From: Rikenellaceae bacterium
Lineage (GTDB): Bacteria > Bacteroidota > Bacteroidia > Bacteroidales > Rikenellaceae
Direction of reading: 5' to 3'
Length of the DNA stretch: 51,754 nt
Assembly: GCA_017425655.1 (NCBI GenBank)
Contig: JAFPAT010000059.1
Coordinates: 1 to 51,754 of the forward strand
Part shown: piece after piece, positions 8,074 to 48,184 of the stretch
Layout: each line of letters starts with the position of its first letter
How positions within the stretch are numbered: the stretch's first letter is position 1
Notes under the pieces: model-generated
The model's database searches: none
Seen by the model: the letters and a program-made list of their open reading frames with translations, nothing else
What the model was told of the DNA's origin: nothing
Position numbers and translations under genes: made by a program

Positions 8074-9153
8074 ATGAAAAGATTGATTCTTACCGCATTG
8101 GCGGTTGTGGCAATTGCGATGCAGGCAGCGGCTGCCAAAATCGATTCGTTGGAGTTTCGTTCGGCACGCGATTTCCGTATTGTAGGTAAAGGCTTTACCG
8201 ATACCGAGTCATTCTACGATCGACTGCCCGCATCGGTTAAGGAGGGTTGCCGCGAGGAGCTTTGGACACTCTCGACCAATAGCGCAGGCATGGCAATTCG
8301 TTTCCGCACCAACTCGACAACTATCGGTGTTAAATGGACTGTTCGTCAGCAGATGAATATGGGCCATATGACTACGGTGGGTATTCGCGGTGTCGATCTC
8401 TATCGTCTGACCGATGATGGCTGGCGACACGTTTGCTCGGGCCGTCCTTCGACCAAGAGCAAGGAGAATAGCGGTATCCTGATATCGAATATGGCTAACG
8501 AGTATGCCGAGTATATGCTCTATCTGCCTCTGTATGATGGCGTGAGCGATGTGCAGATCGGTGTTGATCGTGATGCCGAGATTGGTTATCCCGTTGCAGC
8601 TACTCCGCGTGCCGATCGCTCGGTGGTGTTCTATGGCACCAGCATTACGCAGGGTGGATGTGCCAATCGTGCAGGTATGTGCTATTCGTCGATTCTTTCG
8701 CGCGATATGGATTTTGAGGCTTTTAACCTCGGTTTCAGCGGTAATGCTCGCTGCGATATCTACATCGCAGAGGCTATGGCTCGTATGAATCCTACGGTCT
8801 ATTTCCTCGATTTCGTTCCTAATTGTACTGCGAAGATGATCGAGGAGAGTGCCATTGCATTTATCGAGGTTATCCGCAAGGCTCATCCGACGACTCCGAT
8901 CATTATGCTTGATAGCTATAAGTTCCCTCCCTCGCAGTTCAATCTCGAGCAGCGTCGTCAGTTGGAGGAGAAGACTGTCGAGATGCGAAAAGTTGCAGAA
9001 CATTTCAAATACGACAAGAATTTCTACTTCTACGAGGGTGCATCGTATAACGATGACGAGTGCTCGGTTGATGGTGCGCATCTGACCGACCTCGGCTTCA
9101 AGGCTATGGCCGATCACTACAAGAAGCTTTTGAAGAAGCATATTCGTAAGTAG
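8074..9153 (+). CDS. Secreted SGNH/GDSL-type hydrolase
   Basis: 359 residues with a signal peptide (MKRLILTALAVVAIAMQAAA, cut near 20/21). Residues about 25-170 form the beta-rich N-terminal domain common to Bacteroidetes SGNH proteins; the catalytic domain follows. Catalytic blocks: FYGTSITQGG (Ser190), NLGFSGNA (block II Gly near 220), FVPN (Asn250, block III) and VDGAHLTDLG (Asp333, His336). Block I reads GTS rather than GDS, as is common in the SGNH_3 subgroup. Such enzymes remove acyl or acetyl groups from carbohydrates or lipids; the substrate here is not evident. It lies 14 bases after the acyl ligase and about 25 bases before the histidine kinase gene. Confidence 0.9.
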   Translation: MKRLILTALAVVAIAMQAAAAKIDSLEFRSARDFRIVGKGFTDTESFYDRLPASVKEGCREELWTLSTNSAGMAIRFRTNSTTIGVKWTVRQQMNMGHMTTVGIRGVDLYRLTDDGWRHVCSGRPSTKSKENSGILISNMANEYAEYMLYLPLYDGVSDVQIGVDRDAEIGYPVAATPRADRSVVFYGTSITQGGCANRAGMCYSSILSRDMDFEAFNLGFSGNARCDIYIAEAMARMNPTVYFLDFVPNCTAKMIEESAIAFIEVIRKAHPTTPIIMLDSYKFPPSQFNLEQRRQLEEKTVEMRKVAEHFKYDKNFYFYEGASYNDDECSVDGAHLTDLGFKAMADHYKKLLKKHIRK

Positions 9154-9178
9154 GCGAGCGTGGTAAAACGGAGTGCTT

Positions 9179-10249
9179 ATGCGAGTTCCACGACCACAAC
9201 CCGAAAAAATCAGTAAGCAGGCTCTAACCGAGGGCCTGCTCTACTTTTGTGTTTGGATCTTTGTTTTTCTGGTGCCGATTTTCAGCGGATCAATCTTCCG
9301 TAGCGATCCGTTTGAATGGCGTAGAATACAGACGGCGTGGAGTATCATTTTGCCATATTTTTTGCTCTTTTTGATTCATAATTGGTGGTTTGCCCGCAAA
9401 TTTCTGCTGACAAAACGCTATTTAACCTATGTAGGTCTTACGATACTCGCCGTGTCGATCGTCTTTTCGTCGATCGCGCTCTATCACCATATCTGTGGCA
9501 TCGATATCAATCAGCCCGATGTGCGAATGTCATCGCTCGTATTCAGCCACTTGCCACTTCCTATTAATCTGTTGTTGGGCGTGTTTATGTGTGGTCTAAA
9601 TGCAGGTATCAAGATGATCTATAAGTCGGTGCGCGACGATCAGATGATGATCGAGATGAAGCAGAATATGGCGCAGGCCGAGTTGGATTATCTGAAATAT
9701 CAGATCAACCCGCATTTCTTTATGAATACGCTCAATAATATCCACGCACTTATCGATATCGATTCAGAATTGGCGAAGGATACCGTGATTGAGCTATCGA
9801 AGATGATGCGCTATGTACTTTACGATTCGGAGCAGGACTCTATTTCGCTCGAAAAGGAGGTGCAGTTTTTGCAGCACTATATCCAATTGATGCGTCTGCG
9901 TTATAGCGATACGGTCGAGATCAATCTAAATACTCCTGCGCAGCCACCATTGGGTGTTAAGGTGCCGCCATTGATTATGATTGTCTTTGTTGAGAATGCC
10001 TTTAAGCACGGAATCAGCTATAATAGCCGTTCGTTCATCAATATCGACATTGAGGTTGATAGCGAACAGCAACGAGTTAAATGCTGCGTACGAAATTCGA
10101 AGAATCCGAGCAAGTGGAATACGCAGGGAGGCATCGGTCTTGACAATGTTCGCAAGCGTCTGGATCTACTCTTCCCGAATCACTACAATCTGAATATTAA
10201 TAATACTACTAATCAGTATAGTGTAGAAATTGATATCCCTGCCTTATGA
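9179..10249 (+). CDS. LytS/YehU-type sensor histidine kinase
   Basis: 356 residues from ATG 9179 (GTG 9173 is an alternative). Four hydrophobic spans occupy about 20-145 with little extracytoplasmic sequence, so the signal is probably sensed in or at the membrane. The His_kinase domain carries QINPHFFMNTLNNIHALID with the phospho-acceptor His179. The ATPase part has VENAFKHG (N box, Asn273) and GGIGLDNVRKRL (G box). The stop overlaps the start of the response regulator gene (ATGA), the usual arrangement for these pairs in Bacteroidetes. Confidence 0.94.
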   Translation: MRVPRPQPEKISKQALTEGLLYFCVWIFVFLVPIFSGSIFRSDPFEWRRIQTAWSIILPYFLLFLIHNWWFARKFLLTKRYLTYVGLTILAVSIVFSSIALYHHICGIDINQPDVRMSSLVFSHLPLPINLLLGVFMCGLNAGIKMIYKSVRDDQMMIEMKQNMAQAELDYLKYQINPHFFMNTLNNIHALIDIDSELAKDTVIELSKMMRYVLYDSEQDSISLEKEVQFLQHYIQLMRLRYSDTVEINLNTPAQPPLGVKVPPLIMIVFVENAFKHGISYNSRSFINIDIEVDSEQQRVKCCVRNSKNPSKWNTQGGIGLDNVRKRLDLLFPNHYNLNINNTTNQYSVEIDIPAL

Positions 10250-38432: not shown

Positions 38433-41234
38433 TTACTCTTCGGGATTCATTACAACCAGAGCCGAGTTGCCGCTATTGATGATCTTCGAAGCCAGAGCCT
38501 TGATCTGCTCGGCATTCATACCCTCAACAATCTCCTGATAGCCGGTGAACAGATCCGCACCATCAACGTGCAGGTTGTTCAGAGTGCCACTCCAAGCCGA
38601 ATTGTTCTTGATGTTATCCAAGTGCTGCTTAACCATATACTCCTTAATGGTATTGATCTCGTCAACAGTGGGGCCCTCCTCGGCCATCTTCTTTAACTCA
38701 TCCTTAACAACCTGGATCAGCTCTGCAGCCAGATCTTTGTTGGTGTCGAACTGAACGATGAAACGAACAGCTTCAACGGGGCGACGCGAGAAACCGCCAC
38801 CGCAACCAACGCTATACGTTCCGCCGCGCTCCTCGCGAATCGAAGTGGTGTAGCGCTGACGCATAATCTGCTGCAAGAAGCTGAATGCGAGCTGATTGTC
38901 GAGCGATGTGGGAACGTCTGCGTTGAACGAGAGCGAGATGGTAGTCTTAGGCATCGACATCTTGGTTGCGAAGGTGTTGTCCACCTCGCCATTCCACCAA
39001 CGTACGCCGTCATCCTTCCAAGTCTTGCGATCCTTCTTCTTCGACGATGCGGGCAGCGAGCCGATATACTTCTCAACCAGCGGCTTCAACGTTGCGGGAT
39101 CGATATTACCTACGAAGGTGAAGGTAAAGTCAGCAGCGTTGCCATAGACGGTCTTGAACAGTTCGGGCATCTTCGCGAACTCGACCTTTTCTAACTCTGC
39201 CAGACCCATCATGCCACGACGCGGATTGCCGTTGTAGAGGGTCTTGTTATACTCCTTCTGGAAGGTGTACATCGGGTTGCTCTCAACGTTTTTGAGCTGG
39301 GTTGCGAGCATATCCATCAGCACGTTGAAGTCCTCCTCGCTCCAACGGGGTGCGTTGAAGTAGAGCCACATCAGCTGCAACTGGGTTTCGATATCCTTGG
39401 GTGAGCAGGTACCCGAGCCGGTAGCGGTGTAGTCGTCCATCGAGAACGAGAAACCAACATCTTTGCCTGCCAACTGCTTTTGCAGATCGGTAGCCTTGAA
39501 CTTACCGATACCCGACTGCTCGATGGTCATATCAACCAACGAGGCGGTGTAGATATCCTCATTCGCCACGAGCGAAGCACCACCCAGAGCCTTTGCCGAG
39601 ATGCGCAACTCGTCTGCCTTGAAATCGGTAGGCTTAACCACTACCTTAATGCCGTTCTTCAAAGTCCAAACCGTCGAGCCGAACTTATCGGTCGTGGTCT
39701 TTGCTACGGGCGAGCCCTTCAATACGGTGCCTTCGGGGATCAGCGGCTCCTTCACGACGTTATCCTCGTAGGGCTGCAACTCCTCGCCACGTACCTTATT
39801 CATAATAGCAAGCATCTGCTCGTTGGTCGGAACGGGTGCGTCGGCCTTCTCGGGAGCGGTAACGATCACTACGTTATCTTTCTGTTTGAAGAGTTCCTTT
39901 GCAATAGCGTTGAGCGAGTTCAGGTCGAGCATCGGTACGATCTGCTTAACAAGCTCGTACTCGGTCTCTGCCGACGGAATGGGCGAATTGGTGCGGAAAG
40001 CGTTCAGATACTTCCAAACCAGCTCACCATTGCGGCGGTCGTTACGGTTGTCGTAACCCTTCTCATTCGAGCGCAGTACCTCAGCACGCTCACGCTCCAA
40101 CTCCGACATCGTGAAGCCGAAACGCTGTGCCTTCTCAACCTCGGCATAGAGAGCCTCGAATGCCTTTTCAGCCTCACCGTCGCGAGCAATGGCGATAGCC
40201 TGCATAACGTCCTGATAGTCGGTCAGCGCGCCATAGCCCGAACCAGCTGCGATGAACGGAGCATTGGGCTGCTGCGAAATGTCGGTCAGACGGTTGCTGA
40301 GCATCGAGCCGATCATCTCGATTGCCAGATTAGCCACGAATGCCTGAACCGTGTTGTTCATCTCCTTCGGAACGGGATCGTGCTTGATGAGCATCGTAAT
40401 GCGGGTCGAGGTCATCTCGGGATCGGTTGCAACGCAAACCATAGGCTCGTCGTTACCTGCGATCTTGATCACCTGCTTGGGTTCGGGATTCTCCACTGCG
40501 GGAATATCCGACATCACCTTCTTGATCTTCTCGACCATCCAGTCGGCATCGAAATCACCAACTACGACTACGGCCTGCAAGTCGGGACGATACCAACGGT
40601 GGTAGAAATCCTTAATATCCTGATAGGTGAACGACTTCAAACCCTCGATCGAGCCGATGATGTTACGCTCGCCATACTTCGAGTAGTTGGTCATTACGGG
40701 GCGGGTCTTCTCGTTCAAACGCCAGTTAGCGTCGTTGCGCGTACGCAACTCCTCGATGATCACGCCACGCTCATTGTCGATCTCCTCGTGTTCGAGCGAG
40801 ATGAAGTGCGACCAATCGTGCAGGATCAACAGACAGGTGTCGATGATACCCTCGCGATTCAGGGGCACGCTCGACATGTTGTAGCAGGTCTGCTCCTGTG
40901 CAGTGAATGCGTTGAGGTTAGCACCAAACTTCACACCCACCTTCTCCAAGTAGTTGATCAACATTTTGTCGGGCAGGTTCTTTGTGCCGTTGAAAGCCAT
41001 ATGTTCCAAGAAGTGGGCCAGACCCTGCTGGTTGTCCTCCTCCTGAATAGCACCTACGTGGTGCAGAATGTAGAACTCGGCCTGCTTTTCGGGCTTGGCA
41101 TTGCTACGAACATAGTAGGTCATACCGTTGTCCAGCTTACCGGTTCTTACTGCGGTGTCGGCCGGAATGACCTGACCCACAGCAGTTGCTACGAACGCAA
41201 CGATCGCAGCAGCGGTTAAGAACAGTCTTTTCAT
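38433..41234 (-). CDS. Secreted M16 family zinc metallopeptidase
   Basis: 933 residues, a full pitrilysin-type protein with two M16 halves. Signal peptide MKRLFLTAAAIVAFVATAVG. The active half has the inverted zinc motif HFLEH (His74, Glu77, His78) and a downstream NERGVIIEEL with the distal Glu ligand. The second half (about 510-933) is M16C-like and lacks the motif, as expected. Probably periplasmic degradation of peptides. It lies 44 bases after a small HTH gene on the same strand with no promoter of its own evident, so the two may be co-transcribed. Confidence 0.95.
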   Translation of the reverse strand: MKRLFLTAAAIVAFVATAVGQVIPADTAVRTGKLDNGMTYYVRSNAKPEKQAEFYILHHVGAIQEEDNQQGLAHFLEHMAFNGTKNLPDKMLINYLEKVGVKFGANLNAFTAQEQTCYNMSSVPLNREGIIDTCLLILHDWSHFISLEHEEIDNERGVIIEELRTRNDANWRLNEKTRPVMTNYSKYGERNIIGSIEGLKSFTYQDIKDFYHRWYRPDLQAVVVVGDFDADWMVEKIKKVMSDIPAVENPEPKQVIKIAGNDEPMVCVATDPEMTSTRITMLIKHDPVPKEMNNTVQAFVANLAIEMIGSMLSNRLTDISQQPNAPFIAAGSGYGALTDYQDVMQAIAIARDGEAEKAFEALYAEVEKAQRFGFTMSELERERAEVLRSNEKGYDNRNDRRNGELVWKYLNAFRTNSPIPSAETEYELVKQIVPMLDLNSLNAIAKELFKQKDNVVIVTAPEKADAPVPTNEQMLAIMNKVRGEELQPYEDNVVKEPLIPEGTVLKGSPVAKTTTDKFGSTVWTLKNGIKVVVKPTDFKADELRISAKALGGASLVANEDIYTASLVDMTIEQSGIGKFKATDLQKQLAGKDVGFSFSMDDYTATGSGTCSPKDIETQLQLMWLYFNAPRWSEEDFNVLMDMLATQLKNVESNPMYTFQKEYNKTLYNGNPRRGMMGLAELEKVEFAKMPELFKTVYGNAADFTFTFVGNIDPATLKPLVEKYIGSLPASSKKKDRKTWKDDGVRWWNGEVDNTFATKMSMPKTTISLSFNADVPTSLDNQLAFSFLQQIMRQRYTTSIREERGGTYSVGCGGGFSRRPVEAVRFIVQFDTNKDLAAELIQVVKDELKKMAEEGPTVDEINTIKEYMVKQHLDNIKNNSAWSGTLNNLHVDGADLFTGYQEIVEGMNAEQIKALASKIINSGNSALVVMNPEE

Positions 41235-41278
41235 TGTTTTACAGTGTGTTAATTAATAATTTTGTTTAAGTTATTTGC

Positions 41279-41500
41279 TTATTCATTTTCCGGTTGGTCG
41301 GGGCGATATTCGATAATATCACCGGGCTGACAATCCAGTTCACGGCAAATGGCTTCGAGCGTCGTGAAACGAATTGCACGTGCCTTTCCGTTCTTCAAAA
41401 TCGAGAGGTTTGCCTGCGTGATATCGACACGCTCCGACAACTCGCCGAGCGACATTTTGCGCTTGGCCATCATTACATCGAGGTTGATAATTAGCGCCAT
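41279..41500 (-). CDS. Small XRE/YozG-type helix-turn-helix regulator
   Basis: 73 residues: INLDVMMAKRKMSLGELSER, then VDITQANLSILKNGKARAIR (recognition helix region) and the conserved end LEAICRELDCQPGDIIEY of the YozG group. These regulators often sit beside a DUF2975 membrane protein gene; none is seen here. The ATG at 41500 is preceded by TCGCT and a run of nine G on the coding strand, and by a perfect promoter about 96 bases upstream. Targets unknown; the M16 peptidase gene follows directly. Confidence 0.88.
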   Translation of the reverse strand: MALIINLDVMMAKRKMSLGELSERVDITQANLSILKNGKARAIRFTTLEAICRELDCQPGDIIEYRPDQPENE

Positions 41501-41505
41501 AGCGA

Positions 41506-41514
41506 CCCCCCCCC
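41506..41514 (-). repeat. G9 tract in the HTH leader
   Basis: Nine consecutive G on the minus strand, ending 6 bases before the ATG at 41500, within the mRNA leader. Length change would alter the ribosome-binding region rather than the reading frame. Confidence 0.75.
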
Positions 41515-41595
41515 TTCGGTTTTGTGGTGTGTATAATTCAAAATATCAATAGGTTAGATGGTTTATTTGTACTGTTTAGCTTTAATGTTATGATG

Positions 41596-41626
41596 CAAAT
41601 ATAATAATATTGATGTGATTATCAAA
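41596..41626 (-). promoter_or_regulatory. Promoter of the HTH (and M16) genes
   Basis: Minus strand TTTG (41626-41623), 19 bases, TATATTTG (41603-41596): an exact consensus match. The leader is about 90 bases and includes the G9 tract. Confidence 0.75.
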
Positions 41627-41774
41627 ATAAATTTATCGAAAAACGATATTGTCTATTTATTGAATCTTCGGTCGTGATTTCCGACGCTGTGCGCGTGATT
41701 GCAGAGCACTGAATTTTTGCGCTGACCAGTAGAATTTTATCTGCGATTAAATGGACAAAATGAAATAAAATAGC

Positions 41775-41782
41775 TACATTTG
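41775..41782 (+). promoter_or_regulatory. -7 element for the RyR operon
   Basis: TACATTTG fits TAnnTTTG, with no good -33 TTTG box. The transcript would start near 41789, leaving a leader of about 73 bases to ATG 41862. The weak -33 region may mean activation or an alternative sigma factor. The rest of 41627-41774 shows nothing else. Confidence 0.5.
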
Positions 41783-41861
41783 CATAGCTTGATGCGAACG
41801 CAAAGAGATTGTGTGTGCATCGTTGTTAAAATGGTTTAGTGAAATAAATAATATTCCCTAT

Positions 41862-43979
41862 ATGAGAGAGATACGACAATGGTTTCGTCAATTGTTTGAT
41901 GGCGCGCTTTGGAGAAAGATAGCGGGAGTGCTGTTGATTGCCGTTGCTTTCTATTTTGTGTCGGCACTTATTTTTATGGTGTTAGCCAATGGAATGGAGA
42001 TTTCGGGTGAGTCCGAAGTCGAGAATATGACCGTATGGTGGAAAATTTACTACCTCTTCGTGGATGCCGGAAATCAGATCTCGATTGCAAAAGGACCGAG
42101 ATTGGTAGGATTGATAGTCGGTACGCTCGGCTCAATCTTCCTTTCGGGCCTATTGATCTCGACAATCACCAATGCATTTGAACGTCAGTCGGATAAATGG
42201 CGCAATGGTTTCAGCTACTACAAATTGAAAGATCATATCGTCATCATTGGCTCGGATCAGATGGTGCAGGGTCTGGTCAATCAGTTGTGCGCAACGAGCG
42301 ATAGCGATATTGTAGTAATGACCTCGACTGATGTCGAGACGATGCGAAATTCGCTTCGTGTAGTGTTGCCCGATAAGAAGAATCACGAACGTATCATTGT
42401 GAATTACGGACAGCGCGACTCGGAAAATTATCTCAACTTGATCAATATTGTACAGGCGAAGGAGGTCTATATTTTGGGCGATACAAGCGAGTTTGATGAT
42501 ATTGAAAGTTTCCACGACTCGATGAATGTTCAGTGCCTTACATTGATTGCGAAGTTGTGCAAAAAGGCTAACCGAAAGCAACAACTACCGTGCAACGTGC
42601 TGTTCGACTATAAAACTACATATCACCTATTTCAGTATGCCGATTTAAGTTCTGAAATTACCGACTACATTGACTTCCATCCATTTAATTTCTGCGATTT
42701 TTGGGCTCGCAAGGTGCTTGTTGCAGGATGCAGCAGAGAAATTATTGAGAGTGGGGTGGTAAATGAAATTCGATATAGCTCTTTGGACTATGTGCCAATC
42801 ACCCAGCAAGATAGCGATCGTTTTGTCCATTTTGTCATTATCGGCATGTCTAAAATGGGTCAGGCAATGGCTTTGCAGGCTGCGCATATTGCCCACTTCC
42901 CGAACTATAAACGAAAGAAGACCAAGATCACCTTTATTGACCGTGATGGTAGGGTAGAGATGAACGAGTTTAAGCAGAAGTGTGGCGAACTGTTTAAGGT
43001 TTCGCGCTCGACATTTATCGATGCCGATGCGTGGTTGGAGGCCGTGGAGCGATGGTCGCAAGGCGACCCTGCAGTTGATCCTGAAAGGTACATAACCAAC
43101 TACGGCATTGCCGATGAGTATCGACATCTGGTGAGCGAATCCGACTCGGATAAAGAGTTTATTGACGTTGAGTGGGAATTTATCAAGGGCGATGACCATA
43201 ATCCGATCGTGCAACGCCTGCTCAAAGAGTATGTCGAAGATAACAATGCAATCGTAACGGTTGCTGTATGTCTGAATATCGGCCATATCTCGCTACGCTC
43301 GGCAATGCATCTGCCAAAGGCATATTACGAGAAGAATATTCCGATACTTGTTCAGCAACGCAAGAGCTCGACAATGGTTGCAATGCTGAATGGAGTCGGC
43401 CTTGATGCAGCCGACCGAGATAAATTGCTGTATAAGAATATCACTCCGTTTGGAATGGTCGGCGACTGTTATGATCTTCATTTGGCATCGTCGATTGAGA
43501 TCTGTAAGCGCATAGCGGCAACCTATGACCATTACTTCAAATATGGTAATCTCCCCTCTTGCATCAATTCGGCTGATGCCGACAAATTGTGGCATAGTAC
43601 CAGAATGACGAAAAAGTGGTCTAATATCTTCGCGGCTGCGTCAATCCCGACCAAATTGCGCTGTATCGGTATTAATTGGGATATCAATACCCCTTGCCCA
43701 TTGAAAGAGATGACCGAAGATCAGGTGGCACTGCTTGCCGAGATTGAACATAACCGTTGGAATATCGAGGAGCTGCTGCTCGGTTATCGTCCCGTAAAGT
43801 GCGCAGAGGACCAAGAGATAGATGCCGATCGTTCAAGAAAGAAGTATTGGAAAGAGCGCTTTATTCATTATGATATCAGACCATTCGATGGCCTTAAAGA
43901 GGACAACACCGGCCGCAAAGCAAGTGTCTATGACAAAGTTATTGTAAGATCCTTACCGTTAATATTGAAAAACTTATAA
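41862..43979 (+). CDS. CASTOR/POLLUX-like ion channel with two RCK domains and a C-terminal RyR domain
   Basis: 705 residues from ATG 41862; a GTG at 41811 is in frame but adds polar sequence without a clear role. First membrane span about 20-43. Pore region WKIYYLFVDAGNQ (61-72), where DAGN matches the filter of plant CASTOR/POLLUX channels instead of the K+ channel GYG. Second span about 80-104. Two Rossmann-type RCK domains start at DHIVIIGSDQMVQG (124) and FVHFVIIGMSKMGQ (321). The C-terminus (about 616-700) is an RyR-type domain: EIEHNRWNIEELLLGYRP and HYDIRPFDGL. It probably gates cation flow in response to a cytoplasmic ligand (inference). It is the first gene of an operon; the next starts 13 bases later. 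Confidence 0.82.
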   Translation: MREIRQWFRQLFDGALWRKIAGVLLIAVAFYFVSALIFMVLANGMEISGESEVENMTVWWKIYYLFVDAGNQISIAKGPRLVGLIVGTLGSIFLSGLLISTITNAFERQSDKWRNGFSYYKLKDHIVIIGSDQMVQGLVNQLCATSDSDIVVMTSTDVETMRNSLRVVLPDKKNHERIIVNYGQRDSENYLNLINIVQAKEVYILGDTSEFDDIESFHDSMNVQCLTLIAKLCKKANRKQQLPCNVLFDYKTTYHLFQYADLSSEITDYIDFHPFNFCDFWARKVLVAGCSREIIESGVVNEIRYSSLDYVPITQQDSDRFVHFVIIGMSKMGQAMALQAAHIAHFPNYKRKKTKITFIDRDGRVEMNEFKQKCGELFKVSRSTFIDADAWLEAVERWSQGDPAVDPERYITNYGIADEYRHLVSESDSDKEFIDVEWEFIKGDDHNPIVQRLLKEYVEDNNAIVTVAVCLNIGHISLRSAMHLPKAYYEKNIPILVQQRKSSTMVAMLNGVGLDAADRDKLLYKNITPFGMVGDCYDLHLASSIEICKRIAATYDHYFKYGNLPSCINSADADKLWHSTRMTKKWSNIFAAASIPTKLRCIGINWDINTPCPLKEMTEDQVALLAEIEHNRWNIEELLLGYRPVKCAEDQEIDADRSRKKYWKERFIHYDIRPFDGLKEDNTGRKASVYDKVIVRSLPLILKNL

Positions 43980-43992
43980 TACGAATTGAGAT

Positions 43993-44400
43993 ATGTTACA
44001 CTTAAAAGAAGTTTCAGAGAGTTATGAATTAACCGAAGCAAAAGTCCAAGAGCAGGGGAAGACAGAGATTAATAAATTCTATTTCTTTGCCTATGTGGCA
44101 ATTGTTATCATATTGATAGGGTTTATACTTGTTTGTGATCAATCTGTCAGTGGATGGTTGTTCGCTATATTTTTTGCTACGAATGTGGTAATATTGTCGA
44201 TTGCATTTATGATGTTCCGCATAGCGTTGGAGTGCATAAGACATAGAAACGAAGAGGCGAAAACAATTGCTGACTCTAATCGAAAATTACAGGAATCGAT
44301 TATTAACTACGAAATTAATCTTGCCGTAGATACCATCAAGGAGGCGCGCAAAGATAGCCAAGTGAACAATGCGCCGACCTCTTCTCAAAAGAGTAAATAA
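43993..44400 (+). CDS. Two-span membrane protein with coiled-coil tail, unknown
   Basis: 135 residues. A charged N-terminus (about 1-28), two hydrophobic spans (about 30-50, FFAYVAIVIILIGFILVC; 54-77, WLFAIFFATNVVILSIAFMM), then a charged helical tail with heptad character (ECIRHRNEEAKTIADSNRKL, about 80-120) and a polar end (SQVNNAPTSSQKSK). No family recognised. It lies 13 bases after the channel gene and 3 before the sigma factor gene, so it is part of the operon. It could be a channel accessory subunit or a membrane anchor for the regulator (inference). Confidence 0.75.
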   Translation: MLHLKEVSESYELTEAKVQEQGKTEINKFYFFAYVAIVIILIGFILVCDQSVSGWLFAIFFATNVVILSIAFMMFRIALECIRHRNEEAKTIADSNRKLQESIINYEINLAVDTIKEARKDSQVNNAPTSSQKSK

Positions 44401-44403
44401 TTT

Positions 44404-44976
44404 ATGACATCCCAACAGATCATAGAGGCATTGATTGCTCGGGATGAGCAGACGACGCAACAGTTCTTTTTTAAGGACTGTCGTCCGCTGTTTTTGAGTA
44501 TCATTCGCTATGTGTTCTCTTATGAGGTTGATTATGATGAGTTTGTGAATGAATTCTACATCTACCTAATGGAGAATGATGCCTATCGTCTGCGTCAATA
44601 CCAGGGTCGCAGTACGATCTATCAATGGATGAAGGTTGTCGCAATCCGCTATTTTATAGCCAAGCGAGATAGTATGATAGATATGGCACCGAAAAACTCT
44701 CTTTCAGACAGTGTTGTACAGCGAGAGAGGGTTGATGTCGAGAGGAGTATGATGGCAAAAATGGATGTTGAATATCTGCTTTCCCGTATGCCGAATCGAC
44801 GATATGCCTATGTCATAAGAAGATTGGTTTTGCAAGAGGCTGATCCGATGGTCGTAGCCCAAGAGCTTGAGACCAATGTGGATAATTTGTATAACATTAA
44901 GAAACGTGCAATCGCGGCATTGACCGAGGTGGCACTTAAAGAGGTTGAGAAATATGAAAAAGGAGTCATTAAATAA
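44404..44976 (+). CDS. ECF-like RNA polymerase sigma factor
   Basis: 190 residues. Region 2 is about 25-92: DYDEFVNEFYIYLMENDAYR (core binding) and QYQGRSTIYQWMKVVAIRYF (-10-type recognition helix). Region 4 is about 118-180: VEYLLSRMPNRRYAYVIRRL and EADPMVVAQELETNVDNLYN, with a helix-turn-helix and a KKRAI recognition helix. It overlaps the following gene by 23 bases, the classical sigma/anti-sigma arrangement. Region 2 is more divergent than in typical ECF factors. Its target promoters may include the operon's own. Confidence 0.85.
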   Translation: MTSQQIIEALIARDEQTTQQFFFKDCRPLFLSIIRYVFSYEVDYDEFVNEFYIYLMENDAYRLRQYQGRSTIYQWMKVVAIRYFIAKRDSMIDMAPKNSLSDSVVQRERVDVERSMMAKMDVEYLLSRMPNRRYAYVIRRLVLQEADPMVVAQELETNVDNLYNIKKRAIAALTEVALKEVEKYEKGVIK

Positions 44977-45937
44977 CATTTCGGCAGAGGTGCTGGCGGC
45001 ATATCTTGATGGTAATGCCACTATGCAGGAGGGTAGTGAGATCCTCGATGCGCTTTGTGTGGATGCTGAATTGAGAGAACTGATGCATATTTCTCAATCG
45101 GTTGATCGCGAGTTGAGTCTGTTTGCTACGGATATTGATTATATCCCTATGACGGCAATGGCTGCCTCGTGCGACGAGGGGTGTTATTGCAGTCTGGAGT
45201 GCGAGAAATATATCCTTCGCCGACTTAATATCGAATTTGATGAGCAACAGCTCTATGTTAATGCGATCCAAAATGGCTGGCAAAAGGAGAGTGGTACGGC
45301 GCTTCATAATGTAGGTCGCCATTTGGAGAGTAAAGGTTTGGTCGTAACACGTCAATATAAGGCAACAATGGCCGATATTGCCACAGCTCTTAATTCGGGC
45401 GATAATGTGATTGTGGCAGTCGATGGTGGCGAGTTGTTGGGTGATCGAATGGCCGAAATCAAAGAGGATATTTTGGTCGGACAGATACCTGATCATACGG
45501 TTGTCGTATTGTCATACGATACAGAGAAAAATATCGTAACCGTCTATGATCCAAATTCTTCGAGTGCTGAAGATGTATATTCTGTTGAGCAATTCAAGGA
45601 TGCTTGGAACGATTCGAAGAACTATTTGGTCGTTGTCAGCTCGAAAGCCATTGAGGAGTATATTCCGCGTCCGCTCGACCTTTCGGATGTCGAATTGACT
45701 CCCGATTTGGTCGAATTGCGTGAGGCTATTGCCGAGAATGCACATGAGGTATGGGCGGCGAATCGCTATGCCGAGGGCTGGCGCTATGGCTTGCAACGCG
45801 ATGATGTCCAAAAGCTGCATCCCGATATGATCCCATACTCCAAACTCCCCGAAGGCGAGAAGGATTACGACCGCGAAATGGCAATGAAAACCATCAAACT
45901 CCTCAAAAAACTCGGCTACGATCTAATTAAACGATAA
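44954..45937 (+). CDS. Predicted anti-sigma/C39-like peptidase/RyR fusion protein
   Basis: 327 residues from ATG 44954. Residues 1-55 (AEVLAAYLDGNATMQEGSEI, AELRELMHISQSVDREL) resemble the short cytoplasmic part of Bacteroidetes anti-sigma proteins. Residues about 70-230 look like a C39/papain-type fold: a Cys cluster (Cys73, 77, 79, 83; Cys79 best fits the nucleophile), His181 in PDHTVVVLSYD and Asp199 in VTVYDPNSS. Residues 235-327 are an RyR domain: ENAHEVWAANRYAEGWRYG, HPDMIPYSKLPEGEKDYDR. No membrane span. It overlaps the sigma gene by 23 bases. It may hold the sigma factor until the RyR domain binds a ligand (inference). Confidence 0.78.
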   Translation: MKKESLNNISAEVLAAYLDGNATMQEGSEILDALCVDAELRELMHISQSVDRELSLFATDIDYIPMTAMAASCDEGCYCSLECEKYILRRLNIEFDEQQLYVNAIQNGWQKESGTALHNVGRHLESKGLVVTRQYKATMADIATALNSGDNVIVAVDGGELLGDRMAEIKEDILVGQIPDHTVVVLSYDTEKNIVTVYDPNSSSAEDVYSVEQFKDAWNDSKNYLVVVSSKAIEEYIPRPLDLSDVELTPDLVELREAIAENAHEVWAANRYAEGWRYGLQRDDVQKLHPDMIPYSKLPEGEKDYDREMAMKTIKLLKKLGYDLIKR

Positions 45938-45949
45938 AATTGGGACGCT

Positions 45950-46090
45950 ATGAAATATGATGTATTTATAAGTTATTCACGTGAAGATTTATCTCTTGTA
46001 GAGCCTTTGGTCAAAGATATAGAGAAGAGAGCGGGCGTGAAATGCTGGATTTATTGGAGCGCATGGAGTATTATTTGGAATAAAAATTGA
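45950..46090 (+). pseudogene. Truncated TIR-domain protein
   Basis: 46 codons: the first 34 (MKYDVFISYSREDLSLVEPL, then VKDIEKRAGVKCWI) are a clear TIR start: beta-A strand, box 1 FISYS, helix A and strand B. After CWI the expected loop and the rest of the domain, including the catalytic Glu region, are missing. The frame runs YWSAWSIIWNKN to a stop. The next 65 bases contain only a leader for the solo RyR gene. It is most simply an internal deletion of a TIR gene, possibly one fused to the RyR domain that follows, since TIR plus RyR would fit the neighbours. An intact small peptide is less likely. Confidence 0.72.
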
Positions 46091-46099
46091 CGTTACTGA

Positions 46100-46107
46100 T
46101 AGATTTG
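46100..46107 (+). promoter_or_regulatory. -7 element before the solo RyR gene
   Basis: TAGATTTG fits TAnnTTTG. A TTTG lies 22 bases upstream, slightly too far. It could allow separate expression of the RyR gene. Confidence 0.4.
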
Positions 46108-46155
46108 AGTATCGAGATTGTTCTATAATAGAAACTTTTAGACAAACAGAGAACA

Positions 46156-46446
46156 ATGAAAAAGAGTTATGTACCGCAGCCGATGGATACAAGTGATGTC
46201 CAGTTGCCGGCAGAGTTAAATGTATTGATAGAGCAGATGGCGAAGAATGTTCACGAGGTGTGGGCGCAGAGCCGTATTGAGCAGGGTTGGGTCTATGGTG
46301 AGGAGCGTAGCGATGCTTTGAAACAGCATCCCTGCCTGATCCCTTACGAGGAACTGCCAGAAGTCGAGAAGGCATACGATCGCGATACCGCTCTTGGTAC
46401 GTTGAAGTTGATAAGCAAATTGGGCTTCAAAATTTCGAAAGAGTAG
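46156..46446 (+). CDS. Free-standing RyR-domain protein
   Basis: 96 residues, a single ryanodine-receptor (RyR) repeat domain with a short lead. Seen: KNVHEVWAQSRIEQGWVYGE, DALKQHPCLIPYEELPEVEK and AYDRDTALGTLKLISKLG, the core of the domain. It aligns with the last 89 residues of the C39-RyR protein at about 46 identical positions by hand count. The match includes the lead: YVPQPMDTSDVQL here, YIPRPLDLSDVEL there. The pair therefore comes from duplication of a lead-plus-RyR module. The start ATG is 65 bases after the TIR remnant; a terminator follows. Confidence 0.88.
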   Translation: MKKSYVPQPMDTSDVQLPAELNVLIEQMAKNVHEVWAQSRIEQGWVYGEERSDALKQHPCLIPYEELPEVEKAYDRDTALGTLKLISKLGFKISKE

Positions 46447-46472
46447 CGAAGTGCGCAATTGCTCAATGAAAG

Positions 46473-46507
46473 ATCCGTCAAATCCATAGGAGTTTGGCGG
46501 ATTTTTT
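46473..46507 (+). terminator. Terminator of the RyR operon
   Basis: ATCCGTCAAA, 10-base loop, TTTGGCGGAT (one G-T wobble), then T5. It ends 60 bases after the solo RyR stop. Confidence 0.85.
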
Positions 46508-46583
46508 ATTGTGGTGATAGAAAATGCTCTCCAATACTCTCTTTATAAGAAAACGAATCAAGAAATAACCAATAAATGCAATA

Positions 46584-47018
46584 ATGTTGATCGCAACTTC
46601 ACTTTTGATTCTTGTCTATATGATTATGGGCAAGGATGTCAGCACACTTTTGAAACGAGTTAAAAATGTTGATTGGCGAGGCGAAATCTATCGCTTAATG
46701 GATAAACTTCGCCCTTGGGCTATCAAAGCCGGCCGCGTAGCGACTCGTCCTCTTTTGCAGTTCTACTATGTAATGGCCGACGAACACACCTCGCTGCTCG
46801 ATCGCTTATTGATCTACGCTGCAATTATTTACACGATTCTTCCGATGGACTTTATTCCGAGGATCGCCAATAAGTTCTTGGGCATTTTGGATGATGGCGT
46901 GGCCATGCTCTACGTCTATAAGAAAATTAAGGATAAAATTACCCCCGAAATCAACTCCAAAGTTGAGGATACTCTCAACGAGTGGTTTGGTGTGGAGTAT
47001 GAATTGATTGAAGATTAA
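46584..47018 (+). CDS. DUF1232 (YkvA-like) membrane protein
   Basis: 144 residues. An N-terminal hydrophobic span (about 1-15), a basic amphipathic stretch (RRVKNVDW-type, about 22-55), then the DUF1232 core LLIYAAIIYTILPMDFIPRI with LGILDDGVAMLYVYKKI. The PMDFIPR form is the family signature. Function of DUF1232 proteins is unknown. The 76 bases before it show no consensus promoter. The WG-repeat gene follows after 23 bases, so both likely form one unit separate from the RyR operon. Confidence 0.85.
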   Translation: MLIATSLLILVYMIMGKDVSTLLKRVKNVDWRGEIYRLMDKLRPWAIKAGRVATRPLLQFYYVMADEHTSLLDRLLIYAAIIYTILPMDFIPRIANKFLGILDDGVAMLYVYKKIKDKITPEINSKVEDTLNEWFGVEYELIED

Positions 47019-47041
47019 TAATTAGTAACGGTTTAATAGGA

Positions 47042-48184
47042 ATGAAACGACTGACTCAAATTTTTCAGGCGCTGCTGGCTGTTGTAGCATTGATATTTAC
47101 AACGCTCATTGCCACAGGTCGCCTTGCGTGGCGTACTATCCGTAATTGGTGGAGGAGCCGCTCAAAAAGCGTTCGCGAATCAATAAGTACGCTACTGTGG
47201 ATCATCTCTTTGATTATAATTTGTAATGTGGCTAAATCTTATTACGATGATGCATTTGGCCGAGATTATTGGGATAGGGAGCTATCAGAGCAGATCTCTC
47301 TGCACTCGTTTGCAGATGATAAGTGGCGAGTCTATGATCAATGTGCGGAGAAATATACAACCGACAAAGTGAATTGGGTATCGCTGGCAGCCAATGGAGA
47401 TTCATTGGCGGTATATGCTCTTCCGAATAAGCGAGGATATATCAATGTAAAGACGGGGCAGATTGTCATTGATGCAGAGGATAACGACTATCAAAAGGCG
47501 TGGGTCTTCTCCAATGGTTTGGCGGCTGTGATGCAAAATGGTAAGATTGGATTTATCAATGCGCAGAATGAGATTGTGATACCGTTCCAATTTGACTATG
47601 TCGATCAATCGCGCAAGAGCGATTTCGGTTATATCTTCTATGATGACTACTGCAAGATGATCGATGCGGATGGTCAAGTGGGATTGATTGATCGCAAAGG
47701 TAATTGGATGGTTAGGCCTATGTACGACGAAATTTTGACACCTTGCACGAATGGATATAGGGTAGTGATCAAAGAGGGTAAATATGGACTGCTTGATGCG
47801 ACGTGTAGAGAGATCTATGCGCCAGAGTATTGCTGCATTAGTGTAGTCGCTGATGGAATTGTGCTGACCAAAGATGGACGTATGTGGCAGACTGACTTTG
47901 AGGGACATATCGTACAGCCGTTTATGTTTGAGGAGAGCTACTATCTACACTATCCGATTGGTTATGATGAGTGTGGCGATATCTTGTATGCCTTTGCCGA
48001 TTATGCAAAATATGAGGTGCATAATTGCTATGGTATAATGAATCGTATAACGGGCGAACCTATTACTCGTGCAATCTATTCGGATATCAATATGCTGTCC
48101 AAAGAGTTGTTTGAGGTGCAGAGATGCGACAGCTATGATTGGCACTTGCTCGACACTAAAGGTAATGCGGTTTCAAGAAAATAG
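47042..48184 (+). CDS. Membrane-anchored WG-repeat protein
   Basis: 380 residues. Two hydrophobic spans (about 9-28, FQALLAVVALIFTTLIATGR; 48-64, ISTLLWIISLIIICNVA), then a soluble part made of WG-type repeats of about 45 residues: KRGYINVKTGQIVIDAE, GKIGFINAQNEIVIPFQFD, GQVGLIDRKGNWMVRPMYDE and GKYGLLDATCREIYAPEY. These form a beta-propeller-like or solenoid binding surface; ligands are unknown. It is 23 bases after the DUF1232 gene. Confidence 0.85.
   Translation: MKRLTQIFQALLAVVALIFTTLIATGRLAWRTIRNWWRSRSKSVRESISTLLWIISLIIICNVAKSYYDDAFGRDYWDRELSEQISLHSFADDKWRVYDQCAEKYTTDKVNWVSLAANGDSLAVYALPNKRGYINVKTGQIVIDAEDNDYQKAWVFSNGLAAVMQNGKIGFINAQNEIVIPFQFDYVDQSRKSDFGYIFYDDYCKMIDADGQVGLIDRKGNWMVRPMYDEILTPCTNGYRVVIKEGKYGLLDATCREIYAPEYCCISVVADGIVLTKDGRMWQTDFEGHIVQPFMFEESYYLHYPIGYDECGDILYAFADYAKYEVHNCYGIMNRITGEPITRAIYSDINMLSKELFEVQRCDSYDWHLLDTKGNAVSRK

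Follow-up and report, generated by a model that had tools for sequence, protein, structure and literature searches.

How can one small domain come to sit on an ion channel, on a peptidase-like protein beside a sigma factor and on its own, all within a single bacterial operon? The question is raised by a plus-strand gene cluster on contig JAFPAT010000059.1 of a Rikenellaceae bacterium (assembly GCA_017425655.1; 1.66 Mb, 88% complete, 103 contigs). This 51,754-nucleotide (nt) contig is referred to below as the window. The cluster encodes a channel, a putative extracytoplasmic function (ECF) sigma factor, a protein that joins a C39-like peptidase to a RyR domain (C39-RyR), the start of a TIR protein and a lone RyR domain. 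Clusters of this kind in gut bacteria appear to link a signal derived from nicotinamide adenine dinucleotide (NAD) to an ion channel and an expression switch through a RyR sensor domain of the type known from the calcium channels of animal muscle. The reading that we favor, and judge modestly probable, is that TIR-made ADP-ribose nucleotides would be sensed by RyR domains, with channel gating and release of the sigma factor as the two outcomes. In the open-access literature no paper was recognized as describing such an operon; a preprint on the phage protein RyDEP (PMC13232231) turned up.

Operon order, RyR domains and the channel

Relatives of the operon were collected in two ways. A search for the RyR family PF02026 scored 45 of 250 genomes from the family and 37 of 393 from the order as positive, and stretches were mapped around all matches except those of one genome (G574) and one of two in another (G271). 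A C39-RyR profile search of GTDB contigs gave 144 relatives, and the best 80 matches yielded 79 distinct loci, many of which end at contig ends and some of which share genomes with the PF02026-derived loci. These 79 loci lie in records named Bacteroidales, in families or genera placed there, or in Bacteroidia. C39-RyR relatives at 60-73% identity are mostly from records named Alistipes or Rikenellaceae, with further ones from Bacteroides, Bacteroidaceae, Muribaculaceae, Lentimicrobiaceae and Bacteroidales records. The records named as strains among the loci are Prevotella communis E15-14 and Barnesiella sp. An22.

The genes of these loci keep company. On the same strand in the 79 loci are found sigma (74), TIR (48), channel (38), lone RyR (30), M48 protease (28) and PrsW (14) genes. 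Uninterrupted same-strand runs, with gaps of at most 250 nt, were delimited in the 78 loci with a placeable core open reading frame (ORF). In 73 of them the C39-RyR gene directly follows the sigma gene, and in at least 57 of these the two overlap when each ORF is counted from its first start codon. The runs also hold TIR (41), channel (32) and lone RyR genes (22), and channel and TIR together in 20; 63 TIR ORFs in runs follow the core and 13 precede it, and 19 runs reach the end of the stretch at the 5' side and 26 at the 3' side. The order channel, sigma, putative anti-sigma-C39-RyR, cargo, lone RyR recurs whole or in part in several genera and families, and lone RyR is the last labelled gene in many operons. 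The earlier note on this DNA had named as grounds for refutation homologous loci whose genes are scattered and never co-occur; in the loci collected here TIR, sigma and channel genes do occur together.

Cargo genes vary between loci, and the DUF1232 and M16 neighbors of the window operon are not syntenic in the relatives compared by an empty-site test, so that no insertion boundary can be demonstrated. Both observations would suit a coincidence in which unrelated genes lie side by side in a defence island. This we regard as highly improbable, given the adjacency of the sigma and C39-RyR genes, the presence of RyR in four protein types and the motif shared by these loci (see below). A separate idea, that cargo family c9 is DUF4062-like, was dropped because c9 has no Pfam match.

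PF02026 recognizes both the lone RyR protein of the window (122.8 bits) and the C39-RyR protein (9.3e-31, 106.4 bits), with a gathering score of 27.4. Among solved relatives, the best single-domain score for the lone RyR protein belongs to the Bacteroides thetaiotaomicron 'putative ryanodine receptor' 3nrt (131.5 bits, 8.6e-38). This relative is a structure entry for which, to our knowledge, no operon function has been described. RyR also occurs fused to a PrsW intramembrane protease in one 350-residue protein (L104:5422-6474).

The RyDEP preprint reports that phage RyR domains bind 2'/3'cADPR (cADPR, cyclic ADP-ribose) through H75, W78, H100 and D117, and describes binding of adenine ligands by R12 of human RyR3 (PMC13232231). 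Residues matching these four occur at offsets 0, 3, 25 and 42 in the lone and C39 RyR domains of the window. Across 126 RyR domains H75, W78 and D117 are nearly invariant: H75 is kept in 68/68 lone, 26/26 C39 and 16/18 channel domains, W78 in 68/68, 26/26 and 17/18, and D117 in 66/68, 23/26 and 17/18. H100 is kept in 59/68 lone, 14/18 channel and 5/26 C39 domains. The channel class in these counts means the 18 domains in channel ORFs found by the RyR profile; 57 ORFs were labelled channel, and most of them, that of the window included, escape this profile. In an alignment of 55 channels the residues matching the pocket are H in 54, W in 55, H in 51 and D in 54. Lack of a conserved pocket had been named beforehand as grounds for refutation, and the pocket residues are conserved.

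The lone RyR protein shares its family and its pocket residues with RyDEP, and may likewise bind or cleave 2'/3'cADPR (PMC13232231). It differs from RyDEP in its setting, in that RyR is found here in bacterial operons with TIR genes and fused to channel, anti-sigma-like and PrsW proteins. In one alternative, lone RyR would be mainly a sponge or hydrolase directed against TIR signals of its own or foreign origin, its spread would account for most of the RyR-TIR association and the other fusions would be regulatory hitch-hikers. Retention of the catalytic H75/D117 dyad in lone RyR, its place at the end of many operons and the motif that precedes it are what such a protein could be expected to display. 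It would leave unexplained why channel, C39 and PrsW fusions have this pocket too, and why the motif is linked to the sigma factor, and we consider this alternative quite unlikely.

A phage origin of the lone RyR gene was entertained and rejected, since the ORFs of the two best 'phage' records (69% and 63%), as we read them, are of bacterial character. Both L212 (MT837259.1) and L213 (MT836850.1) are filed as 'Bacteriophage sp.' with gene content that reads bacterial, and L213 carries a lone RyR gene followed by a channel with DPGNQ. The other 181 records have less than 60% identity; among the 25 matches listed, the remainder cover 45-73% of the query. Among plasmids 15 records match, each over less than 80% of the query, and the ten listed match the C39 part (27-31%).

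The window channel is CASTOR/DMI1-like in its RCK part. Residues ~23-41 and 81-99 form hydrophobic segments on either side of the filter sequence VDAGNQ, encoded at 42060-42077, and EHNRW is encoded from 43746. As a single sequence the protein has zero PDB matches. A profile from 29 channels (alignment A4, consisting of the window sequence and 28 of 29 sequences) matches the soluble domains of DMI1 (7vm8, 1.4e-4) and CASTOR (6o6j, 7.9e-4), and its C-terminal part, over positions 656-694, matches the RyR chimera 6uhi (1.1e-5). E629, H630, R632, W633, H669 and D691 are invariant across the 29 sequences. The earlier note had counted three RyR domains. Those of the lone and C39 proteins are found by Pfam, but the one in the window channel is missed by Pfam and by a purpose-built RyR profile and emerges only with the 29-sequence channel profile and the six invariant residues.

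Among ungapped rows of the 55-row channel alignment, the filter columns hold D in 37/49, G in 40/49 and N in 28/47. The CASTOR filter is AD265S(A)GNHA, and a D265N change abolishes CASTOR current (PMC6697748). The plant Ca2+ channels CASTOR, POLLUX and DMI1 resemble the window protein in their RCK part and, probably, in a filter that reads D-(A/P)-G-N instead of TVGYG (PMC6697748), whereas the window protein has only two transmembrane (TM) segments and adds a C-terminal RyR-like domain. Animal ryanodine receptors also place a RyR (R12) domain on a cation channel, and the lone RyR of the window matches RyR2 domains at up to 75 bits. The window channel, however, has 705 residues rather than about 5000 and shows no pore similarity to them by sequence. 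Long RyR proteins of 723-772 residues adjoin PrsW or TIR genes at L033:3119-5437, L052:3087-5321 and L050:5603-7774; the last has no pore motif in the channel alignment.

Sigma factor, C39-RyR regulator and promoter-like motif

The protein encoded upstream of C39-RyR had been called ECF-like in the earlier note. TIGR02937 agrees, but at 27.7 bits the match falls below its cut-off of 42.9, and a Pfam search up to E 1 gives no match; a sigma profile finds nothing in the PDB at 0.001. In the C39-RyR protein the C39_2 match has 21.5 bits (3.9e-4; cut-off 24). C79 and H181 are invariant in 71/71 sequences (alignment A3, made of the window sequence and 70 of 78 listed sequences) and, in a separate set whose numbering runs +3, D199 is kept in 23/26; these would be the catalytic residues of a C39-like peptidase. 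The N termini of C39-RyR proteins weakly resemble those of anti-sigma factors, with matches at E of at most 1 to zf-HC2 in 7/17 (best 6.6e-4) and to RseA_N in 4/17 (best 0.062).

An overlapping gene pair of this kind fits a sigma factor and its putative regulator. Pairs of ECF sigma factors and soluble anti-sigma factors likewise combine overlapping genes for sigma and regulator with a linked motif of fixed spacing. They differ in that the regulator here appears to contain a C39-like peptidase and a RyR domain, and in that one predicted promoter falls inside the sigma coding sequence.

The motif TGATAGA-N17-CTCTATA was first revealed in the stretches before lone RyR genes. A search that tolerates one mismatch gives 125 raw sites with spacer 17 and 59 with spacer 19, compared with 7 and 8 in reversed sequence. 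These raw counts include overlapping loci: the 184 sites of both spacers become 154 once duplicates are removed, namely 100 with spacer 17 and 54 with spacer 19, of which 35 and 11 lie inside sigma genes. Many spacer-19 sites are spacer-17 sites read with a shifted box.

Occurrence of the motif follows that of the sigma gene. Genomes are termed sigma-positive when a sigma gene occurs in the loci around PF02026 matches, so a sigma gene without RyR nearby is scored negative. The motif stands before 15 of the 22 lone RyR genes from sigma-positive genomes and before 3 of the 44 from sigma-negative ones (P 3.4e-7) when two mismatches and spacers 17-19 are allowed, and in 13/22 and 1/44 with at most one mismatch. 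Exact copies outside sigma genes occur at 31.4 per Mb in the loci of sigma-positive genomes (19 sites) and at 1.2 per Mb otherwise (1 site). In the 250 whole genomes an exact motif is present in 15/21 sigma-positive and 10/229 sigma-negative genomes (P 3e-13), and 44 sites contrast with 7 for the reversed pattern, although some of these genomes also supplied sites from which the pattern was made. With a slightly wider pattern, three of the four exact matches in the genome of the window lie inside this locus; this pattern, which takes in the site at 46515, was widened with the window sites in view. The fourth match directly follows a gene that we read as that for ribosomal protein L19.

Synonymous codons at the motif within the sigma gene are under constraint. 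In an alignment of 79 unique sigma proteins, from which identical ones were dropped, the codon for Ile92 is ATA in 67/69 (24.8 expected), the last two bases of codon 91 are TG in 42/44 informative cases (18.2 expected) and those of codon 99 are CT in 61/69 (17.5 expected). Codons 99, 100, 92 and 101 have the four strongest third-position biases among 179 columns. The exact TGATAGA stands at this site in 57 of 79 genes. Third-position biases with z 6.9-7.3 are also seen outside the motif, at codons 53, 7 and 18 of the sigma gene (44404-44976). In locus L063 the motif lies 15 nt before the sigma gene. New here is thus the motif TGATAGA-N17-CTCT(A/T)T, with copies inside the sigma gene, upstream of lone RyR and upstream of a pair of DUF1232 and WG genes.

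Of the 44 scattered sites, 33 were inspected, 20 of them from sigma-positive and 13 from sigma-negative genomes. Within 90 nt of 22 of these sites an ORF of 55 codons or more starts with ATG, and 4 have no such ORF; ten of the 33 fall inside a frame that is 100 codons long or longer. A scan of ten downstream proteins gave three named matches and otherwise none or matches below cut-off. CD225 with a Zn-ribbon, of the interferon-induced transmembrane family, follows the motif in a sigma-positive genome (G193, L236:260-739), a Zn-ribbon-like protein does so in G224 and a Bax1-I protein in the sigma-negative G183 (L242:2082-2777). By our own reading, the downstream proteins include several with probable signal peptides and one probable lipoprotein. 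A relative of the window DUF1232 gene follows a motif site in the sigma-negative genome G194, a DUF1232-like gene is found at a motif in L199 and WG genes at motif sites in L068 and L182.

These downstream genes make an envelope or stress regulon at least as likely as abortive infection (discussed below). One alternative of this kind is an ECF regulon for envelope stress in which RyR senses a cell metabolite such as ADP-ribose or adenine nucleotides, not a dedicated TIR product, and the TIR genes are island passengers. PrsW and M48 proteases in the operons would have a natural place in it, as would the adenine ligands of the human R12 domain. It sits poorly with the 41 of 78 loci whose run includes a TIR gene, with TIR genes near RyR far more often than by chance and with the preserved glutamate of the TIR domains, both described below. 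We consider it doubtful.

TIR proteins and the proposed signalling pathway

TIR and RyR genes are associated on the scale of whole genomes. TIR_2 occurs in 39/45 RyR-positive and 33/205 RyR-negative genomes of the family (P 1.5e-19) and in 30/36 and 111/356 of the order (P 1.2e-9). A TIR gene lies within 10 kb of RyR in at least 16/44 family genomes (2.0 expected) and in 18/36 order genomes (0.57 expected), expectations being computed from mean genome sizes; none of 200,000 simulations is as high. One column of the TIR alignment is E in 151 of 152 ungapped rows from 153 unique domains, and we take it to be the catalytic glutamate. The scanned cargo TIRs have Lcl_C, Sel1, hexapeptide or SIR2-like parts as fusion partners, and one plain TIR adjoins an nSTAND1 protein. 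L052:7045-9669 encodes 12 WD40 stretches (summed 441 bits) with a TIR_2 match at the start (G149:C18:167071).

The earlier note had seen the start of a TIR domain in the window, and profile matches bear this out (Table 1). Only the first ~33 codons match TIR proteins, and a short unmatched stretch follows. From 46078 or 46094 the sequence matches that preceding lone RyR in relatives, which points to an internal deletion in the window TIR gene. A 92-residue ORF that passes from the start of a TIR to the end of a RyR domain (L191:15699-15977) is perhaps a similar deletion. Intact TIRs of the window genome, on other contigs, are TIR-Sel1-Lcl_C, TIR-Lcl_C and double TIR proteins.

Thoeris is among the known systems closest to this one. 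Common to both is a TIR enzyme, here the proposed maker of an ADP-ribose nucleotide that would activate an adjacently encoded partner. In the present case, the proposed receptor would be a RyR domain and the outputs a channel and an ECF sigma factor. The window has no intact gene for a ThsB-type TIR, only the 46-codon remnant, and no PADLOC match to a ThsA-type effector among the other six window proteins scanned. A Thoeris-like abortive infection is a possible if rather improbable explanation: TIR would sense phage and make a cADPR isomer, the channel would kill, and sigma and RyR would tune expression. It is in keeping with the variety of TIR fusions (WD40, Sel1, Lcl_C, hexapeptide, SIR2-like) and the nSTAND1 neighbor, with the patchy distribution of RyR (45/250 and 37/393 genomes) and with a phage protein, RyDEP, that targets such signals (PMC13232231). 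PADLOC, however, finds only the TIR remnant among seven window proteins, the channel is missing in 41 of 79 loci (many of which end at contig ends), and motif sites elsewhere precede secreted-looking and membrane genes, not recognizable effectors.

The favored reading, of RyR domains as sensors of TIR products, can be set out as a sequence of steps. TIR proteins, present as cargo in relatives and intact only elsewhere in the genome of the window, would convert NAD to an ADP-ribose-type signal, with RyR domains as its receptors. Ligand bound at the C-terminal RyR-like domain would gate a tetrameric CASTOR/DMI1-like RCK channel for cation flow, probably of Ca2+. Ligand bound at the RyR domain of the soluble anti-sigma protein would activate or re-orient its C39-type peptidase, which would destroy or release the anti-sigma part and free the ECF sigma factor of the preceding overlapping gene. 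The sigma factor would then start transcription at TGATAGA-N17-CTCTATA sites, both inside its own gene, feeding the anti-sigma and cargo genes, and before lone RyR; further promoters may lie before the DUF1232 and WG genes and be scattered in some genomes. Finally, the sigma-induced stand-alone RyR would bind or cleave the signal and reset the system. What the sequences show directly is the set of genes with its conservation and clustering, the preserved pocket and active-site residues, and the motif with its link to the sigma gene; the ligand, catalysis, tetramer, gating, anti-sigma action, motif recognition by this sigma factor and the direction of each effect are inferred. The scheme in full, with a NAD-derived messenger that controls transcription by ECF sigma release and CASTOR-type Ca2+ channel gating, a sigma promoter within its own gene and a sigma-induced RyR off-switch, is tentative, and we place it just short of an even chance.

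The earlier note had proposed one ligand shared by the channel and the sigma branch. Comparative genomics and the RyDEP preprint (PMC13232231) support this idea well, with TIR as the source of the ligand, but the local TIR is a remnant. Several observations weigh against RyR sensing of TIR products. According to the preprint, RyDEP was the only one of nine proteins tested to cleave the signal, and binding was absent in 2 of 8 homologues (PMC13232231). Of the 26 C39-RyR domains, 21 have T or N at the H100 position. Profile scores for the sigma, C39 and anti-sigma assignments are weak, and the window C39-RyR N terminus has no zf-HC2 match and reaches RseA_N only at 0.13. In sigma-positive genomes 7 of the 22 lone RyR genes have no motif before them, exact TGATAGA is missing in 22 of 79 sigma genes, and ten sigma-negative genomes have the motif. 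At the 5' end of operons, 66 upstream regions share no dyad clearly above shuffles (top 6, shuffled maxima 3-4, A/T-rich dyads excepted). Many lone RyR-channel loci have no sigma gene, TIR_2 is missing in 6 of 45 RyR-positive family genomes, and the window operon is without a working TIR. The association statistics also treat related genomes as independent, and shared ancestry and general defence load may contribute to them.

If the proposed pathway is correct, calcium signalling by cADPR and RyR would have a counterpart in prokaryotes. TIR/cADPR-type signalling would then reach beyond effector proteins to transcription via a sigma factor, and the long-debated link between cADPR and the ryanodine receptor domain would gain a simple bacterial form that reporters can test. 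Bacterial RyR domains meanwhile gain a defined genetic context and a candidate regulon motif.

Layout of the locus and its neighbors

The six plus-strand units of the earlier note have the positions given there, as do their gaps of 13, 3, -23, 12 and 65 bases by ORF coordinates. Unit five, however, is the TIR remnant, and the cluster is therefore better described as five intact genes and one remnant.

Table 1. Positions of the operon genes, adjoining genes and predicted regulatory elements in the window
Feature	Position	Strand	Basis
Channel, CASTOR/DMI1-like 2-TM RCK with divergent C-terminal RyR-like domain (predicted)	41862..43979	+	Slo-like_RCK 1.9e-5
Small 2-TM accessory protein	43993..44400	+	Homolog search (phmmer) nearly empty
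ECF-like sigma factor	44404..44976	+	TIGR02937 1.8e-6, below cut-off
Motif TGATAGA-N17-CTCTTT in sigma gene, predicted internal promoter	44675..44704	+	Codon-level constraint
Predicted anti-sigma N terminus (1-75), C39-like peptidase and RyR (236-324)	44954..45937	+	
TIR gene remnant, 46 codons	45950..46090	+	PADLOC PDC-S66 3.4e-6; ThsB 0.0019; TIR_2 3.2e-4, below cut-off; comparison with relatives
Motif TGATAGA-N17-TTCTATA, predicted sigma promoter, 29 nt before lone RyR	46097..46127	+	
Lone RyR domain protein, 96 residues	46156..46446	+	PF02026 7e-36; pocket H/W/H/D present
Predicted intrinsic terminator	46465..46512	+	-22.9 kcal/mol, z -7.43, 0/200 shuffles as stable
Motif TGATAGA-N17-CTCTTT, 40 nt before DUF1232 gene	46515..46544	+	
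DUF1232-like protein, predicted regulon member	46584..47018	+	PF06803 0.0021, below cut-off
WG-repeat protein, 23 bases after DUF1232 gene	47042..48184	+	PF14903 2e-21

The single terminator that the earlier note placed at the end of the operon corresponds to a predicted hairpin after lone RyR with T residues directly 3' of it; this hairpin was spotted by eye and then folded. Consensus scans of 41200-47100 for sigma-70 promoters and terminators give no more matches than shuffled sequence. The DUF1232 and WG genes beyond the hairpin (46584-48184) carry a separate copy of the motif. The small 2-TM protein between the channel and sigma genes was searched with phmmer against two ORF sets. It finds only itself in one, and in the other it weakly matches (0.0033) an ORF at 8875-9444 of locus L151 that is likewise located between a channel and a sigma gene.

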